35,387 nt of DNA from Nocardiopsaceae bacterium (GTDB lineage Bacteria > Actinomycetota > Actinomycetes > Streptosporangiales > Streptosporangiaceae), in the NCBI GenBank assembly GCA_017354375.1, contig JAFMRC010000006.1, positions 1 to 35,387 of the forward strand, given 5' to 3'. How positions within the stretch are numbered: the stretch's first letter is position 1; the number at the start of each line of letters is the position of its first letter. The position numbers and the translations under genes are program-made. This document shows, one piece after another, positions 5,074 through 23,950 of the stretch. The notes beneath the pieces were generated by a model, which did not search any database, was not told the origin of the DNA, and saw only the letters and a list, made by a program, of their open reading frames with translations.

Positions 5074-6166
5074 CATGACCTCGCACGCCAGCACCCGGAG
5101 CCGCCGGGGACGGAGGATCGCGCTCGGCGCGGCTGTCCTGGCCCCCCTCACGGCCGCGGCCCTCGCCGTGGCCGCCCCCGCGCGGGCCGACGCCGGACTA
5201 GAGCAGCAGCGGCAGCCGATGCCGCGGGCCTTCGGCTCCGTCGCCGGGGCGCCCTCCGCGTCAGCGGCGCCGGGCAGGGAACAGGCGACGGCGTCCCCGT
5301 CCGGCGGCTTCCTCTACCGGAACGGCCGGTACACCGCGCTCGCCAGCGTGGCCGGACTGCCGACGGGTGACGCCGCCGTGAACGACCGCGGCCAGACCAC
5401 CGGCTCCTACTTCTCCGGCGGGACCACGATCCGCGGCTTCATCCGCTACGCCAGCGGGCACGCTACGGGCTTCGACGCCGCACCCGGCGCGACGACCGAC
5501 GCGCTCGCCATCAACGACCAGGGCACGGTTGCCGGCGTCTACGGGGTGACCACGGCACACGGCTTCGAGCGCAGCCCGGACGGCACGATCACCACGATCG
5601 ACGTGCCCGGCGCGCAGGGCACCTACATCCTCGGCATCAACGACCGCGGTGCGGTGGTCGGGGATTACACGGACGCTAGCGGCCTAGAGCACGGCTTCCT
5701 GCTCGAGCACGGCGTGCTCACCATCATCGATCCGCCCGGCGCCCCGGACAGCCCGGCCGCCCGCGACACCGCCGCGACCGGCATCAACGACCGGGGCCAG
5801 GTCGTCGGCTACTACGCCGACGCCAGCGGGACCTACCACGGCTACCTCTACGACCACGGCCGGTTCACCATCATCGACCCGCCCGGTGCCGCCGACGTCC
5901 CTAACTTCGCCACCACCGCTCCATGGGGGATCAACGACCGGGGCCAGGTCGTCGGCCAGTACGTCGACGCGAAGTCGGTGCTGCACGGCTACCTGTGGCA
6001 GCCGGGGCGCGGCTTCGCGACCATCAATGCCCCGCGGATCATCGGCTTCAACCGGGGCGTTCCCGGCGCGGGCACCGTCGCCTCTGACATCAACGACCAG
6101 GGCCAGATCCTCCTGCCGGCCGCCGGAGACCTTTACAAGTCACGGACGGTCCCCGTCTCCAGCTGA
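5074..6166 (+). CDS. Secreted HAF-repeat protein
   Basis: Signal peptide RRIALGAAVLAPLTAAALAVAAPARADA; repeated GINDRGQVVGYYADASGTYHGYLYDHGRFTIIDPPGA units; start at ATG 5074 preferred (agggagacgac SD) over track start 4988. Confidence 0.85.
5365..6120 (+). repeat. Six degenerate protein repeats (xINDxGxVVGxY...HGFL...TIIDPPGA) of the HAF type
   Basis: Visible copies: AVNDRGQTTG, AINDQGTVAG, GINDRGAVVG, GINDRGQVVG, GINDRGQVVG, DINDQGQIL. Confidence 0.85.
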
Positions 6167-7114: not shown

Positions 7115-9289
7115 GTGAGCGCATACGCGAACTCTTACAGCGGCACGGCGGGCACGGTGATCCAGGCCGGCAATCTCGGGACGCTGGTGCTGGGGGAGGA
7201 CACGCGTCGGACCGTTCGGCTGGTACCCAAGGTCACCTCGGCCTTCCAGGACCGTGACGAAGCGATGGCGGAGCTCGGCGCATGGGCCGAGCAGGCTGAG
7301 GCGGGCGGGAGCCGCCTGTGGGTCATCACGGGGGAAGCGGGGGTCGGCAAGACGACGCTGGCGGTCACCTGGATCAACGAGAACAGGCACCGGTTCACTC
7401 ACGCTCAGATCGCGATGGAGTGCGGCGGCGGTCCGGGAGAAGGGCGCGGCCGGGGGATGGAGGAGGTCTGCGATCATTACTTCACGCAGACCCGCACGCT
7501 GCCGGGCGCGGCGGTGACGCTGACGGCGAAGATGAACCTGCTGGGCTCGCTGATCGACGGGCAGCCTGTCGCCGTGCTGCTGGATGATCCGCAGTCGGCC
7601 GCTCAGGTCGAGCCTTTCCTGTCTAATCTGCCGGGCGTGCTGGTCGTTGTCACCAGCAGGATCCGCCTGCCGGGGCTCGCGCAGCACTCCCCTCGGGTGC
7701 TCGGCCTGTCACCGCTGCCTGATGACGCCGTGAGGGGCATGTTCGAGGAGATCGTAGGGGCGGAGCGGACCAGGGCCGAGCCCGAAGCCCTTGATCAGCT
7801 CGTCCGGATCTGCGCGGGACTGCCGCTGCTCGCCAGCCAGGCCGCCGGGCTGCTGCACGATGATACGGAGCTTGGGCTGGCCGAGCTTGTCCGCCGGATG
7901 ACGGATCAGGGACGATTGGCTGCCCTGGATGCCGGGCACGACGAGAGCATGGTCGGGCCCTCCGAGGTGTTCGAGGTCGTGTATCGCGCGCTGAGCCCGC
8001 CTGCCGCCCGCGTGTACCGCGCGATCGGGCTGCACCCGGCGCGGGACTTCGACCAGGGACTGGCCACCGCGCTGTTCGCTGAGAGCCCCGAGGGCTGGAC
8101 GGAGGGGCTGGAGCAGCTCAAGAGGCGGGGGATCATCAGGTCCGACCGGCGCGGTCGCTATCTGATGGAGGATCTCACCTACGAGCACGCCAGGCTCGCG
8201 GCGGACCGGGACGATGACGCGAGCGAGCGGAGACGGATCCGCGGCCGGATCGCCGACTATTACCTGCGCGGCGCCATCGCCGCGAGCCGCTGCCTGCAGC
8301 AGCGGTGGACGCTGAGCCCGCTGTATGACGAGGAGCCGCCGTTCCCGCTTCCGGATTTCCGGGCTCCCGCGGACGACCGGGCGCCTGGGGACGGGACGGA
8401 CCCGATTGCCTGGACCAGGGAGAACCTCCCTGCGATCATGGCGTGCATGCGTCGTGCGGGCCGGGCATGGGAGACCGCCGGGCCGGTACCCGGCTACCGG
8501 TGGCAGATGGCCGAGGCCACGAACGCGTACTTCACTCGCGAGGGCCCTAGCGACGAGCGGGCGACCATCCTGGCCTGGGCCGAGGAGGACGCGGACGCAT
8601 GCCGAGATGCCGATGCCCAGGCGCGGATCCAGGCGCAGTGGGGGGAGATGTTCCTGGGGCACGGGGAGCTGGATAAGGCTGAGGAAAGGTTCAGGCGTTC
8701 GCTGAGGGCCGCCGAGAGCGGGAGCGAGTACCGCGGGCGGGGCGCGGGGCTGGAATGGCTAGGCATTACCGAGCGCCGACGCGGCCATGCCGCCCGGGCC
8801 CTGGAGTACTTCGACCTGGCCGAGCCTTTCCTCGACCCGGCCCGGCCGCGCAGCCGGGCCTTGCTGCAGATGCACCGGGCCGACGCGCTGGCCCTGCTGG
8901 GCGACCCGGCCGCCCTGCACGCCTACCTGGAGGCGGGCGGGCTGTTCCGCCAGCTGGCGGCTGAGGGCGAGCGTGATCACGCCAACGAGGGCAAGGTCCT
9001 CGCGGGGCAGGCCGAGCTGCTCACGGACTCGGATCCGCGCCGGGCACACGCCCTGCTGGAGGAAGCGCTGTCACTTTTCCAGGCCGCGGACCGCCCCTAT
9101 CAGGAGGCAAAGGCCTGGGAACTCCTCGGGGACCTCGGTGACGGGGCAGGTACCTGGCAGGAGGCGCTTGACCTGTACGAGCGCCTCCGCCTGCAGAAAG
9201 ACGCCGATCGCGTCCGGTCGAAGCTTTCAGCGAAGATCCACCCGGAAGTCAGCCCTGATGCTGCGGGCGGATCCCAGGCGCAGGATTAG
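7115..9289 (+). CDS. STAND/NB-ARC NTPase with C-terminal TPR-like repeats
   Basis: Walker A VITGEAGVGKTTLAV, Walker B VAVLLDD, LVVVTSRIRLPGL (RNBS/sensor), GLPLLASQAAG (GLPL), C-terminal TPR-like helices; N-terminal GTAGTVIQAGNLGTLVLG. Confidence 0.9.
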   Translation: MSAYANSYSGTAGTVIQAGNLGTLVLGEDTRRTVRLVPKVTSAFQDRDEAMAELGAWAEQAEAGGSRLWVITGEAGVGKTTLAVTWINENRHRFTHAQIAMECGGGPGEGRGRGMEEVCDHYFTQTRTLPGAAVTLTAKMNLLGSLIDGQPVAVLLDDPQSAAQVEPFLSNLPGVLVVVTSRIRLPGLAQHSPRVLGLSPLPDDAVRGMFEEIVGAERTRAEPEALDQLVRICAGLPLLASQAAGLLHDDTELGLAELVRRMTDQGRLAALDAGHDESMVGPSEVFEVVYRALSPPAARVYRAIGLHPARDFDQGLATALFAESPEGWTEGLEQLKRRGIIRSDRRGRYLMEDLTYEHARLAADRDDDASERRRIRGRIADYYLRGAIAASRCLQQRWTLSPLYDEEPPFPLPDFRAPADDRAPGDGTDPIAWTRENLPAIMACMRRAGRAWETAGPVPGYRWQMAEATNAYFTREGPSDERATILAWAEEDADACRDADAQARIQAQWGEMFLGHGELDKAEERFRRSLRAAESGSEYRGRGAGLEWLGITERRRGHAARALEYFDLAEPFLDPARPRSRALLQMHRADALALLGDPAALHAYLEAGGLFRQLAAEGERDHANEGKVLAGQAELLTDSDPRRAHALLEEALSLFQAADRPYQEAKAWELLGDLGDGAGTWQEALDLYERLRLQKDADRVRSKLSAKIHPEVSPDAAGGSQAQD

Positions 9290-10888
9290 CGGGCTGAGGG
9301 CCGGAAGGTCGTCCGTTCCGGTGAGGAGACGCTCAGCCAGGACGGCGAACACGAGGCCGGCGTCATCCGGGCTGTCCGTGTCCTCAAGGAGCAGTGAGAT
9401 GACCCGGCCGTCGCGGGTCCGCAACCAGGCCCGCTTCCCGGCCTGGACGAGGGTGAGCCTGGTGCCGGGCCGGTGCTCGAAGACGGCCGCCGACCATTCT
9501 TCCTCGTCCAGGAGCGGGGGGTCGCCGGTCATCTGGATGATGTCGGCCTGGCTCAGCAGCCGGTGGTCCAGTTCGTCGTCGGAGGCGATCAGTATGCCCG
9601 GACGGCAGGGCCCGGTCACGGCAGCGGGCCACCTGCGCACGGACAGCTCGCGTGGATCGGCATCGGCTTGCTCGACCCGCGTCCACAGGGACGCGGGCAG
9701 AGTCCCGCCTACCACTGGCGAGGCGACGGCCAGGACCGCGGGCTCGGTGTCAGGCGGTGGGACGTTCATGATCCGGTAGAGCTCGTCGCGGATCAGGCGG
9801 AGCGAACGTCCCGGGGCGGAACTGACCCATTCGGCGGCGACGGCGTGAGTACGTTCTCGCAGTCCCTCGGCGATGCGCAGCTGGGGCTCGATGGACGCGT
9901 GCGGGTCGAGGGCAGGGGCGACGGCCATGAGCCTGCCCAGGCCGGAGCGCGGGTCGATGGTTTCCCAGGCGGATTTGTCCAGCAGCACAGGTCGCCCCGC
10001 GGCGGCGGCGTAGACACTGACGGACCCATGGTCTGACAGGACCCAGTCGGCGGCGATGACGGCGGCGCGCCATTCTTCCTCGAGGGGAAGCAGGATCAGC
10101 CCCGCGTCCAGAGCCTCGGCGAGCCACGCCCTAACCTGGAAACGGCTGTGAGACGCCCAGGCATTGGGATGAAGCATGAGTGCGATCCGGTACTGGTCGA
10201 ACGGGAGCTCGTTCAGCATGCGGGACACCAGTAGCGGATCAACACCGTAAAGAGAATTCTCCCGCCACGTCGAGGCGACGGTGATAAGCCGCTGGCCGGG
10301 ACGCAGGTGAAAAGCGCGTCGGTATTGAACCCTGCGGGGAATGCTTGCCGCTATTCGGTCATAACACGGATCGCCCGCTATGAATGCCCGCGGCACGGCA
10401 TCGGGGCAGCTCCCCGAGAGCCGCGCGAACTGCTCCGAATGTGAAAGCCCTATAGCAGCCGGGACCAGTCGCCCGTCGTGCTTGAGCGTATCCTCCGACA
10501 ACCCGAACGGCTCCCGGCTCCCGGCTCCCGGCTCCCGGCTCCCGGCTCCCGGCTCCCGGCTCCCGGCTCCCGGCTCCCGGCTCCCGGCTCCCGGCCATAG
10601 CTTATTATAGCCATTACCATGCGGTATGCGCAGTATCGGGGAGTTTATTTCATGCAGATCGTCGCCCAGGCTCGCGCAGATCACCGCATTGAATTCGAGT
10701 TCCACCGCCTGCTCCCATGAAAGGAAATGGAAGCCGCAGGCCTGGATGAAGGATCCGACTCCCTCGGGGAACATGGAGTCCCTGGTCTGCGTGCAGAACA
10801 ATTGCAGGCGCTGGTCCCGGAAAATCGGGATCAGGTCCGCGAGCCTGGTAGCGGCGGTGGCGCTGTGGATCACCAGCAGGACCCGCAT
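9227..10888 (-). CDS. Putative GT-B-fold/CDP-glycerol transferase-like protein containing an in-frame heptanucleotide repeat tract
   Basis: MRVLLVIHSATAATRLADLIPIF...IALMLHPNAW...VLSDHGSVSVYAAAAGRPVLLDKSAWE; start at ATG 10888 seems more natural than ORF start 10972. Confidence 0.6.
   Translation of the reverse strand: MRVLLVIHSATAATRLADLIPIFRDQRLQLFCTQTRDSMFPEGVGSFIQACGFHFLSWEQAVELEFNAVICASLGDDLHEINSPILRIPHGNGYNKLWPGAGSREPGAGSREPGAGSREPGAGSREPFGLSEDTLKHDGRLVPAAIGLSHSEQFARLSGSCPDAVPRAFIAGDPCYDRIAASIPRRVQYRRAFHLRPGQRLITVASTWRENSLYGVDPLLVSRMLNELPFDQYRIALMLHPNAWASHSRFQVRAWLAEALDAGLILLPLEEEWRAAVIAADWVLSDHGSVSVYAAAAGRPVLLDKSAWETIDPRSGLGRLMAVAPALDPHASIEPQLRIAEGLRERTHAVAAEWVSSAPGRSLRLIRDELYRIMNVPPPDTEPAVLAVASPVVGGTLPASLWTRVEQADADPRELSVRRWPAAVTGPCRPGILIASDDELDHRLLSQADIIQMTGDPPLLDEEEWSAAVFEHRPGTRLTLVQAGKRAWLRTRDGRVISLLLEDTDSPDDAGLVFAVLAERLLTGTDDLPALSPLILRLGSARSIRADFRVDLR
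10509..10592. repeat. Perfect heptanucleotide tandem repeat (GGCTCCC)x12 within the CDS on minus strand (encodes GAGSREP repeats)
   Basis: Counted directly: units start at 10509 and every 7 nt through 10586, followed by ggcc. Confidence 0.97.
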
Positions 10889-11155
10889 CGACGTCCGGGC
10901 GGTCCGCCATCCTGGCAGGACCGAACTGATCCGCCGGGCGGCTGGGGGGAGGTCGGGTGCCCAGTCTGCCACAGGCAGGTAAGCATAGCGCTACAGGAGT
11001 GCTAATTGTTCACATCTGGCCCAGTTTGCCGGGAAGCGCCCCAGGTGGTCCGGTCTCATACCACCGTCCCCGGACGCGCTCGGGGCCGCGTGACGCGGAT
11101 CCGGGCTCGCCGGGTTGTTCAATAGAGTGGGTGCCGGCGGTAGGGAGGGCTGGAG

Positions 11156-11866
11156 ATGGGGGAAGGGCGCAAGTCCCTTGTCGACGTCGTCGTCGATGAT
11201 GTGCTCGATCGCATCCTGCGCGGGGACATCGAGCCGCACAGCATGCTCCCGACGGAAGTCGACATCGCCCGCGAGGTTCGGGTCAGCCGGCTAACGGTGC
11301 GCGAGGCGATGAAGGTCCTGAAGTCGCAGAACATCGTCGAGACGCGGCGGGGGCTGGGGACGTTCGCGAATCCGCCGCGGAGCTGGACCGGGCTGGAGGC
11401 GGTCATGCGGGTCGCGTCGCAGAAGTCGGATTCCGGCCAGATCGCCCTGCGCCTGCTGGAGGTCCGGAGGATGGTGGAGGTTGGTGCCGCTGAGCTTGCG
11501 GCCTCGCACCGTTCCCGCGAAGACCTGGACGCCATGGGGGTCGCGATCCAGCAGATGGAGGCGGCGCACCGGGTCGCGGACGTCGATGCCCTCACCAGCG
11601 CCGACATCGCGTTCCACGACACGATCCTGCACGCCTCGGCCAACCCGTTCGTGCCCGCCCTGCTGGGCCAGCTGAGCCCCCTGCTGGTCGCCGCTCGCCG
11701 GGAGACCTCCGCGTTCCCCCAGGTACAGGAGCACGCGATACGGCACCACAAGCTGATCCGCGACGCCATCGCCTCAGCGGCGCCGGATAAGGCGCGCAAG
11801 ACGATGGAGGAGCACATCAACCAGACGTACGCGGACTACCAGAGGTTTATCAGCCCGGCGCGCTGA
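11156..11866 (+). CDS. FadR/GntR-family transcriptional regulator (FCD domain)
   Basis: wHTH: LPTEVDIAREVRVSRLTVREAMKVLKSQNIVETRRGLGTFANPP; FCD: RRMVEVGAAELAASHRSREDL...DIAFHDTILHASANPFV...HHKLIRDAI. Confidence 0.93.
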   Translation: MGEGRKSLVDVVVDDVLDRILRGDIEPHSMLPTEVDIAREVRVSRLTVREAMKVLKSQNIVETRRGLGTFANPPRSWTGLEAVMRVASQKSDSGQIALRLLEVRRMVEVGAAELAASHRSREDLDAMGVAIQQMEAAHRVADVDALTSADIAFHDTILHASANPFVPALLGQLSPLLVAARRETSAFPQVQEHAIRHHKLIRDAIASAAPDKARKTMEEHINQTYADYQRFISPAR

Positions 11867-11911
11867 GGCCGATCGGCCTTCCGGTACGGCGGGGCTTCGT
11901 GGTCTGGTTGT

Positions 11912-11924
11912 GACATCTGATGTC
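11912..11924. promoter_or_regulatory. GACATC-T-GATGTC dyad: candidate GntR operator upstream of kinase gene
   Basis: Perfect 6-1-6 palindrome in the 73-bp gap between the regulator and kinase. Confidence 0.45.
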
Positions 11925-11939
11925 TGATACTCTCCTGGA

Positions 11940-13379
11940 ATGCCTGGTGGCGACCCCCAACCACAGGCCGGCGGCGCTCGGACCCGGCGCGAGATCCGGG
12001 CGGAGCGGATGGCCGTGGGCCGTCGGACCGCGGTTCTCGACGACGATCCGACCGGCTCGCAATCCGTTCACTCCGTGTCCGTGGTCACGAGCTTCGACAA
12101 GGCCGCCTGCGAGGCGGCCCTGTCCGATCCCGGATCGGTGTGCTTCGTCCTGACGAACACCCGCAGCCTTCCCGAAGCCGAGGCCGCGGGCATGAACCGG
12201 TCGATCGGGGCGGAGCTGTTCGAGATCGAGCGGAATACGGGGGCGCCGCTCGACATCGTCAGCCGCAGTGACTCCACGCTTCGGGGGCACGTGATCGCGG
12301 AAGCCGAGACGCTGAACGAGGCCCGCCGGACTGTGCTCGGACGCGGTTTCGACGCCATCCTCCTCGTGCCGAGCTACTTCGAGGCCGGGCGCTTCACGGC
12401 AGGCGACGTCCACTACGCGTGGGTCGGCGGGCGCGCGGTCGGTGTCGGCGAGACTGAATTCGCCGCGGATGCGACCTTCGGCTACCGCTCGTCCAACCTG
12501 AGGGACTTCATCGAGGAGAAGAGCAACGGGCGGATCCCCGCGGACCGGGTCGCCAGCCTCAGCCTCGATGACATCCGCTCGGGCGGTGCCGACCGAGTGG
12601 CGCGGCTGCTCGGCCACACCGGGGGCGGCGAGTTCGTCGTGGTCAACGCGACGGACTACGCGGATCTTGAGACGGTCGTGCGGGGCGTGCAGCGGGCCGA
12701 GGCCGACGGGAAGGCGTTCCTGCACCGTAGCGGGCCGTCCTTCGTCCGGGCCCTGGCCGGCATCGACCCGGTGCCCGAGCTGTCGAGCGCGGACATCTGG
12801 GCGGCCCGGGCGGCGGGCGGGGCGGATGCCCGGGGCCATGGGCTGGTCGTGGTGGGGTCCCACGTGGCGCAGACCGACCGGCAGATCGCGCGGGCGCGGG
12901 AGCGCTGCACCGTCGTCGAGATCGAGCTGCCGGTCGGGCGACTGCTCACCGGGAGCAGCCTCCGCGCCGAGGTCATCGCCGAGACCGCCCGGCGAGTCGC
13001 CGGCGCGCTCCCCGGCGCCGACGTGCTGCTCTACACCAGCCGCGGGCGGGTGGAGGGCGCGGATCCGGCCGGGAGCCTGGCCATCGCCCGCACCATTTCC
13101 GATGCCCTGGTCCAGGTGGTCCGGTCGGTTCGACGGGCTCGTCCCGGCTGGGTGATCGCCAAGGGCGGCATCACCTCTCACGACATCGCCGTCCAGGCTC
13201 TCGGGATCCGCCGGGCGACCGTTCTCGGGCAGCTGTTTCCCGGGATGGTCTCGGTGCTCGTCCCGGAAGCGGCCCCGCCGGATGTCATTGGTGTCCCGTA
13301 CGTCGTATTCGCTGGCAATGTCGGCGATGAGAACGCCCTGGCCGACGCGATGGACCTGCTCCGTCCGAACGCTCACTGA
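11940..13379 (+). CDS. Four-carbon acid sugar kinase family protein (DUF1537)
   Basis: VLDDDPTGSQSVHSVSVVTSF...VLTNTRSL...SRSDSTLRGH...PSYFEAGRFTAGDVHY...AKGGITSHDIAVQALGI. Confidence 0.93.
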   Translation: MPGGDPQPQAGGARTRREIRAERMAVGRRTAVLDDDPTGSQSVHSVSVVTSFDKAACEAALSDPGSVCFVLTNTRSLPEAEAAGMNRSIGAELFEIERNTGAPLDIVSRSDSTLRGHVIAEAETLNEARRTVLGRGFDAILLVPSYFEAGRFTAGDVHYAWVGGRAVGVGETEFAADATFGYRSSNLRDFIEEKSNGRIPADRVASLSLDDIRSGGADRVARLLGHTGGGEFVVVNATDYADLETVVRGVQRAEADGKAFLHRSGPSFVRALAGIDPVPELSSADIWAARAAGGADARGHGLVVVGSHVAQTDRQIARARERCTVVEIELPVGRLLTGSSLRAEVIAETARRVAGALPGADVLLYTSRGRVEGADPAGSLAIARTISDALVQVVRSVRRARPGWVIAKGGITSHDIAVQALGIRRATVLGQLFPGMVSVLVPEAAPPDVIGVPYVVFAGNVGDENALADAMDLLRPNAH

Positions 13380-23806: not shown

Positions 23807-23810
23807 TATC

Positions 23811-23888
23811 GGGGGTTCCAGGGGGTCGTCCCCCTGGGTTAGCAGGGCCGGGGGTTCCAGGGGGTCGTCCCCCTGGGTTAGCAGGGCC
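23811..23888. repeat. Two perfect tandem copies of a 39-bp hairpin-containing repeat, plus a degenerate third copy to ~23905
   Basis: gggggttccagggggtcgtccccctgggttagcagggcc at 23811-23849 and 23850-23888; each has ccaggggg-tcgt-ccccctgg. Confidence 0.95.
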
Positions 23889-23950
23889 GGGGGTCTAGCA
23901 GGGCCGGGGTTCCTCGCGCGACGGGCGGTCGTCGTGGCATGGTATGGACC

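Follow-up and report, generated by a model that had tools for sequence, protein, structure and literature searches.

A heptanucleotide tract as the very probable switch of a phase-variable two-gene module widespread in mycelial actinomycetes

Slipped-strand mispairing is the standard cause of unit-number change at tracts of simple sequence repeats (SSRs), and the contingency loci at which such changes switch a reading frame are, to our knowledge, known almost entirely from host-adapted bacteria with small genomes. The G-tract of pglX is the one textbook case from an actinomycete. Described SSR contingency loci include those of Haemophilus influenzae, Neisseria and Campylobacter, among them tetranucleotide tracts in the lic and lgt glycosyltransferase genes and heptanucleotides at hmw1A, one of which lies inside hmw1A with a frameshift (PMC2651432). 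The locus described here resembles these in its intragenic short repeat and in frame switching by unit number, which in the known loci often affects surface-glycan genes. Their unit, however, is as a rule 1-4 nt long and close to the 5′-end of the gene, is far less variable and belongs to small, host-adapted genomes, whereas the actinomycete repeat is a 7- or 8-mer in mid-gene, is spread over a class of soil bacteria of high GC content and lies in a gene that has a STAND NTPase as its partner. The phase-variable pglX locus is part of a defence system with an ATPase component (PMC4365076), but its tract is a homopolymer in a methyltransferase gene, neither a GT-B protein nor a heptamer array is involved, and the proteins are unrelated.

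Heptamer repeats have been reported from Xanthomonas, Nostoc (GGGAATC and GGGGA(C/T)T) and Calothrix (PMC4692102), and these are likewise abundant 7-bp tandem units of varying copy number. They are, however, dispersed and mainly non-coding, consist of one or a few fixed units and have a proposed G-quadruplex role, whereas the actinomycete arrays sit at one conserved site in one gene family. Conflict systems based on STAND or NLR-like proteins have been described in multicellular bacteria, with glycosyltransferase effectors noted in conflict systems (PMC7159879, PMC8195603), as have NB-ARC NLR-like bacterial proteins with N-terminal amyloid motifs (BASS; PMC12261475). These proteins share with our locus the NB-ARC/TPR architecture in multicellular actinomycetes; in the excerpts of these papers considered here, phase variation, a GT-B or TagF-like partner and convergent pairing were not found.

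The literature searched yielded no earlier account of the gene family, of the heptamers in it or of its pairing with an NTPase. Frame switching by SSRs is already known; the same-site 7/8-bp switch in a TagF-like family is previously unreported. The comparisons presented here make it very likely that the tract switches one gene of a phase-variable pair, a two-gene module that is widespread in mycelial actinomycetes.

The repeat tract and its gene

The tract lies in a 35,387-nucleotide stretch of DNA from a Nocardiopsaceae bacterium (the window), the source assembly of which is of the metagenome type (5.6 Mb in 580 contigs, 87% complete). TRF finds in the window a single perfect array of period 7 (10508-10595; 12.6 copies, 100% match, score 176), which stands out because most of the other tandem arrays are imperfect, with period lengths that are multiples of 3. 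Twelve full units (10509..10592), read as GGCTCCC on the plus strand, fall inside a minus-strand open reading frame of 581 aa (9227-10972), where the coding strand reads GCCGGGA/GGGAGCC and the 84 bp form 28 in-frame codons that specify the heptapeptide PGAGSRE four times. The first-pass annotation had described a perfect repeat within a coding region, and TRF and the reading-frame coordinates confirm that description. Its expectation for copy-number change also agrees with our recomputation: the product is full-length at 9, 12 and 15 units (574, 581 and 588 aa) and truncated at 10, 11, 13 and 14 units (199, 171, 206 and 178 aa, respectively). In the predicted OFF frames the N-terminal half (10601..10972, minus strand) is the sole part translated, together with an out-of-frame tail, and the C-terminal half (9227..10508, minus strand), a nucleotide-sugar-type domain with a DHGS motif, is absent from the products.

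Several other features of the window were recorded. A perfect 39-bp tandem repeat at 23810-23894 (2.2 copies, CGGGGGTTCCAGGGGGTCGTCCCCCTGGGTTAGCAGGGC) may form a hairpin, and a 147-bp tandem repeat at 5632-5970 (2.3 copies, 76% match) is apparently coding. At 11156-13379, a GntR/FCD regulator is followed by an SBD_N + NBD_C gene of the four-carbon acid sugar kinase type, with transcription running away from the tract-bearing gene. The sole other place in the 5.6 Mb assembly with at least three GGCTCCC units is an intergenic array, (TCCCGGC)x4.3 at C215:6280-6309, with the same unit as the window and about 30 bp upstream of the ATG that starts an apparent gene.

The protein encoded at 9227..10972 has no match in Pfam or NCBIfam, and three homologues score 10-14 bits against PF04464, under the cut-off of 22.1. 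Fold comparison was used because a sequence search of the PDB gave only a meaningless match. The AlphaFold2 model is confident (pLDDT 88.8), and its top fold match by Foldseek is the wall teichoic acid polymerase TagF (E 7e-11, target TM 0.56), followed by UDP-GlcNAc 2-epimerases; the fold is of the GT-B type and most like that of TagF. Profile-profile comparison with PF04464-type proteins gives a probability of 93% and an E-value of 2.4e-7 over 132 columns, all in the C-terminal domain. The motif pairs HGxGYNK/HGTPLK (the latter the catalytic histidine motif of PF04464) and DHGS/DYSS (within TDYSS) appear to correspond, with the profile alignment covering the C-domain only. The CDP-glycerol glycerophosphotransferases TagF and TarL (PF04464) resemble the window protein in their GT-B fold and apparently also in the placing of HG-x-K and D-[HY]-[GS]-S motifs (HGNGYNK before the tract, SDHGS in the C-terminal half), whereas the window protein is without a Pfam match, has an N-domain that does not align, and has an extra C-terminal domain, the repeat loop and a convergent STAND partner. 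On the evidence of the model, the window protein is built on a TagF-like GT-B scaffold, although formal Pfam membership failed, and it is a putative transferase whose donor would be an activated polyol phosphate or sugar and whose acceptor would be a surface polymer. The tract starts two residues past HGxGYNK, and the loop that it encodes is disordered in the model (residues 129-149, pLDDT<50).

Arrays at one codon site across actinomycetes

A genus-level search found an orthologue with 79-84% protein identity that is split over two contigs, both of which end within the same repeat; this genus-mate assembly (G002) breaks exactly in the tract. At the family level (343 genomes) many orthologues were found, with matches starting exactly past the tract, and nearly all close orthologues have a tandem array of differing unit at the same codon position, between HGxGYNK and FGLS. 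Units at other loci include GATCAGC, GACCGGC, GGATCGGC, GGGAACA, GGAACCA, CAGGAGT and CGGAAAC. A scan of 84,980 named genomes yielded 80 loci in Streptomyces, Amycolatopsis, Saccharopolyspora, Nocardiopsis, Lentzea, Frankia, Nocardia, Nonomuraea, Actinomadura and other genera; a class-wide search with a motif pattern was too strict and gained only a few extra cases.

Removal of duplicates left 102 unique homologous loops from Streptosporangiaceae, Streptomyces, Amycolatopsis, Nocardiopsis, Lentzea, Frankia, Nocardia and others. A perfect array is present at the same place in 75 (period 7 in 67, period 8 in 8), no array in 26, and a weak 12-bp array of 2.8 copies in one more, making the switch common, but not universal, among homologous loops. 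The arrays are 24-157 bp long, recur in isolate genomes and complete plasmids from many laboratories, and represent about 40 distinct units. A unit is almost never common to different genera; site and period persist. The locus is larger than the earlier finding implied. Two other readings were rejected on these counts: an in-frame variable-repeat protein, since not one of the 75 arrays has a period divisible by 3, and a conserved DNA-binding or regulatory motif, given about 40 different units at one site.

A scan of 1.78 Mb of these loci recovered 91 loop arrays (duplicates included), none elsewhere within the gene, and 12 perfect arrays of any period from 4 to 12 outside the family sites; of these 12, 2 prove to be loop arrays of the family as well, located at contig ends. 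The probability of a chance array at this site is negligible because the background amounts to only these 12 arrays. On this background density, and on recurrence in isolates, chance or artefact was rejected as the source of the arrays. That the locus reflects sequencing or assembly error, or decayed pseudogenes, is scarcely credible: the window assembly is fragmented and 87% complete and the genus-mate assembly breaks at the tract, but arrays that differ by whole units recur in isolates and in complete plasmids sequenced by many laboratories, and both halves of the OFF genes described below are open and constrained.

Units have been replaced many times at the retained site. On a tree of the flanking protein, at least 46 changes of unit, 11 changes of presence and 7 changes of period are required, and the window's four-member clade has four different units. 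Intermediates are seen as arrays in which one mutated unit type is spreading (L075, L142, L068), and in two Streptomyces plasmids that are about 95% identical (L190, L191) GCCGGGA has turned into GCCGGAA in every copy. These observations bear on the proposal that a permissive loop simply gathers heptamer arrays, which mutation commonly produces in bacteria, with no selection for switching. Such neutral tolerance is compatible with the disorder of the loop in the AlphaFold2 model, with the over-representation of heptamers among bacterial SSRs (PMC4692102) and with the GGCTCCC arrays that lie outside the gene family. It would, however, lead one to expect harmless periods divisible by 3, which are seen in 0 of 75 arrays (a chance of about 6e-14 given equal likelihood of periods 4-12). 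These loci have almost no background arrays of period 7, and the site has been retained through at least 46 unit replacements, so that neutral tolerance is improbable and strongly disfavoured.

The arrays outside the family, (GGCTCCC)n of 4-15 units, occur in Streptosporangiaceae genomes (L036, L042, L047 and others of L036-L051) with no similarity to the gene family in the surrounding 3 kb, and GGGAGCC may be prone to slippage in Streptosporangiaceae bacteria generally. A dispersed mobile-type GGCTCCC repeat was considered and set aside: although some arrays do lie outside the family, what marks the site is its position and not the unit that it contains.

Between 1 and 7 copies of the family were counted per sampled genome, and heptamers are also found near the start codon of some copies. 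Two such copies belong to the window's own genome. In one (G000:C546, L017, 2951-3045) the ATG is followed by (GCCCGTC)x13.6 and the in-frame body of the gene; in the other (G000:C527, L019, 3076-3155) (GGTTCCT)x11.4 occupies the leader, downstream of a -10-like box and upstream of the start. Both have a convergent STAND gene. Relatives of the C527 copy in three genomes (G002, G092, G235) have heptamers in the leader just ahead of the start codon. The family has therefore recruited heptamers at two more places, in the leader and after the start. In Nonomuraea antri a perfect (TCGCGTGG)x16 array (L056 4506-4633 and L084 8575-8702) lies just upstream of a second family copy and is probably another leader-type switch.

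ON and OFF alleles among close relatives

The two halves of the gene are in different frames, each of them open, in 9 of the 75 array-bearing loops and in 0 of the 26 repeat-free loops, an excess that is marginal (one-sided p=0.06) and is drawn from a sample in which retrieval favours ON copies. In Streptomyces anthocyanicus, strain NBC 01668 has 17.6 units (OFF) and strain NBC_01372 has 9.6 (ON). The plasmids that carry the gene are linear and show 99.06% identity over 13.6 kb; all 54 substitutions lie outside the switched gene, which differs by 8 units alone. Lentzea albidocapillata NRRL B-24057 (7.4 units, ON) and subsp. violacea DSM 44796 (8.4 units, OFF) are 96% identical, and their arrays differ by exactly one CCGGAAA unit. 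Two Nocardiopsis pairs (L062 and L069; L064 and L074) have a unit common within the pair, with one allele ON and the other OFF. The window's own lineage is represented by one metagenome-type assembly with a single unit number.

No stops were found in either half of the OFF alleles. In pairs with an OFF allele, the out-of-frame C-terminal half has a dN/dS of 0.12-0.34, similar to that of ON/ON pairs, and the OFF copies are therefore not decaying pseudogenes. Automatic annotation calls these genes "hypothetical protein" and, in OFF alleles, sets the start downstream of the repeat, which hides the switch. The locus thus combines what is seen at contingency loci elsewhere: a perfect repeat within an open reading frame with a unit not divisible by 3, frame-changing variation in unit number among close relatives, and OFF alleles that are intact except for frame. 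The phase variation proposed at first pass is supported by unit numbers that differ between close relatives within S. anthocyanicus, Lentzea and Nocardiopsis, and the contrary outcome named at first pass, differences solely in multiples of three, is not what is found (8 units in S. anthocyanicus, one unit in Lentzea). At the level of sequence comparison, switching by unit number is well supported, and its cause is probably slipped-strand mispairing, which would be reversible and of high rate.

It might be argued that selection acts on the length and sequence of the loop, with in-frame peptide variation near the active site altering antigenicity or specificity and frameshifts arising as a by-product. 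ON loops do vary widely in length and sequence (a gap of 39-177 nt in array-bearing loops), directly after the conserved HGxGYNK motif. However, periods divisible by 3, which would be better suited to such tuning, are absent, and OFF alleles are present in natural isolates and annotated genomes, so we regard it as unlikely that tuning maintains the arrays. There is very little prospect that programmed translational or transcriptional slippage over the repeat yields both products from any copy number. A 7-bp array is open in all three frames, with the same heptapeptide cycle, which speaks for such slippage, but no known slippery heptamer or stimulator is conserved, and the units are of about 40 unrelated sequences. 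A shift of 7 nt in register would also be needed, and we know of no ribosomal or polymerase slip of that kind.

Under frame switching by unit number, slipped-strand mispairing would gain or lose 7-bp units (8-bp in some relatives) in the disordered loop past HGxGYNK. Two of the three length classes would put the C-terminal domain out of frame and leave a truncated N-terminal fragment (OFF), and in the third the whole protein would be made, its loop lengthened or shortened by a few residues (ON). Because a 7-bp unit gives the same heptapeptide cycle in each frame, any stop-free unit would be tolerated; the unit itself would drift, by point mutation and then homogenisation of the array, since the loop tolerates any sequence. 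Selection would retain the site and a period other than a multiple of three. Heptamers are over-represented among bacterial SSRs in general (PMC4692102), which may be why the periods are 7 and 8 and not 1-4.

The convergent STAND NTPase

Facing the tract-bearing gene is a convergent gene (7115..9289, plus strand) for a 724-aa protein with AAA_16/NB-ARC-like and TPR domain matches, and the two genes share 63 bp at their 3′-ends. The overlap is 38 bp in three Streptomyces plasmids. The matches of the window partner are all below gathering thresholds (AAA_16 4e-5, TPR_16 8e-5, NB-ARC 0.001), and those of relatives' partners reach 8.5e-11 for NB-ARC; the order of a P-loop NB-ARC/AAA module and then TPRs is that of STAND proteins. 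A facing STAND NTPase in the same unit had been suggested at first pass, and support comes from the family at large: a convergent STAND NTPase gene (NB-ARC/AAA and TPR) adjoins 84 of the 87 homologues with enough flank, array-bearing or not, as well as all five family copies examined in the window's own genome.

The N-termini of the NTPases are of two kinds, a glycine-rich "SGxvxGxvvQAxxIg" type, which may resemble bacterial amyloid signalling motifs, and a MLDPxSxxAISAVLGAVG type found in many Streptomyces. In both S. anthocyanicus plasmids (L187, L189) the STAND gene is in fragments beside a switched gene that is intact except for frame, and the two genes can therefore part. PADLOC gave no convincing match to a catalogued defence protein for either protein, and no phage matches were found, so that a phage origin is not upheld.

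The conserved site and period, the turnover of units, the ON and OFF alleles within species, the constraint on both halves and the STAND partner are all read from sequence, and on this footing we conclude that the two genes very probably form a conserved phase-variable module. In functional terms, the module may consist of a surface-polymer transferase that is guarded by, or coupled to, an NLR-like receptor. The NTPase would sense, or be coupled to, the presence or the product of the switched protein, and switching would split the population into groups that differ in surface or immune state, with phage or kin conflict the probable source of selection. That the module is a new conflict system is a possibility. 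A more specific version, tentative and rather doubtful at present, is a class-wide module for self/non-self recognition or phage conflict in which a hypermutable TagF-like glycopolymer transferase is switched (as a guarded or antigenic component), the tail-to-tail STAND/NLR-like NTPase acts as sensor or executioner, and several copies per genome switch independently. If this were true, the independently switching copies would give mycelia a combinatorial individuality.

In Streptomyces, Amycolatopsis, Nocardiopsis, Nonomuraea, Frankia and others, a 7/8-bp switch has been retained at one codon site while the repeat sequence has been repeatedly replaced, which offers a natural experiment in selection on mutability (period and place) and not on sequence. 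The obligate-looking pairing with a convergent STAND NTPase points to an undescribed phase-variable module of immunity or kin conflict in antibiotic-producing bacteria.
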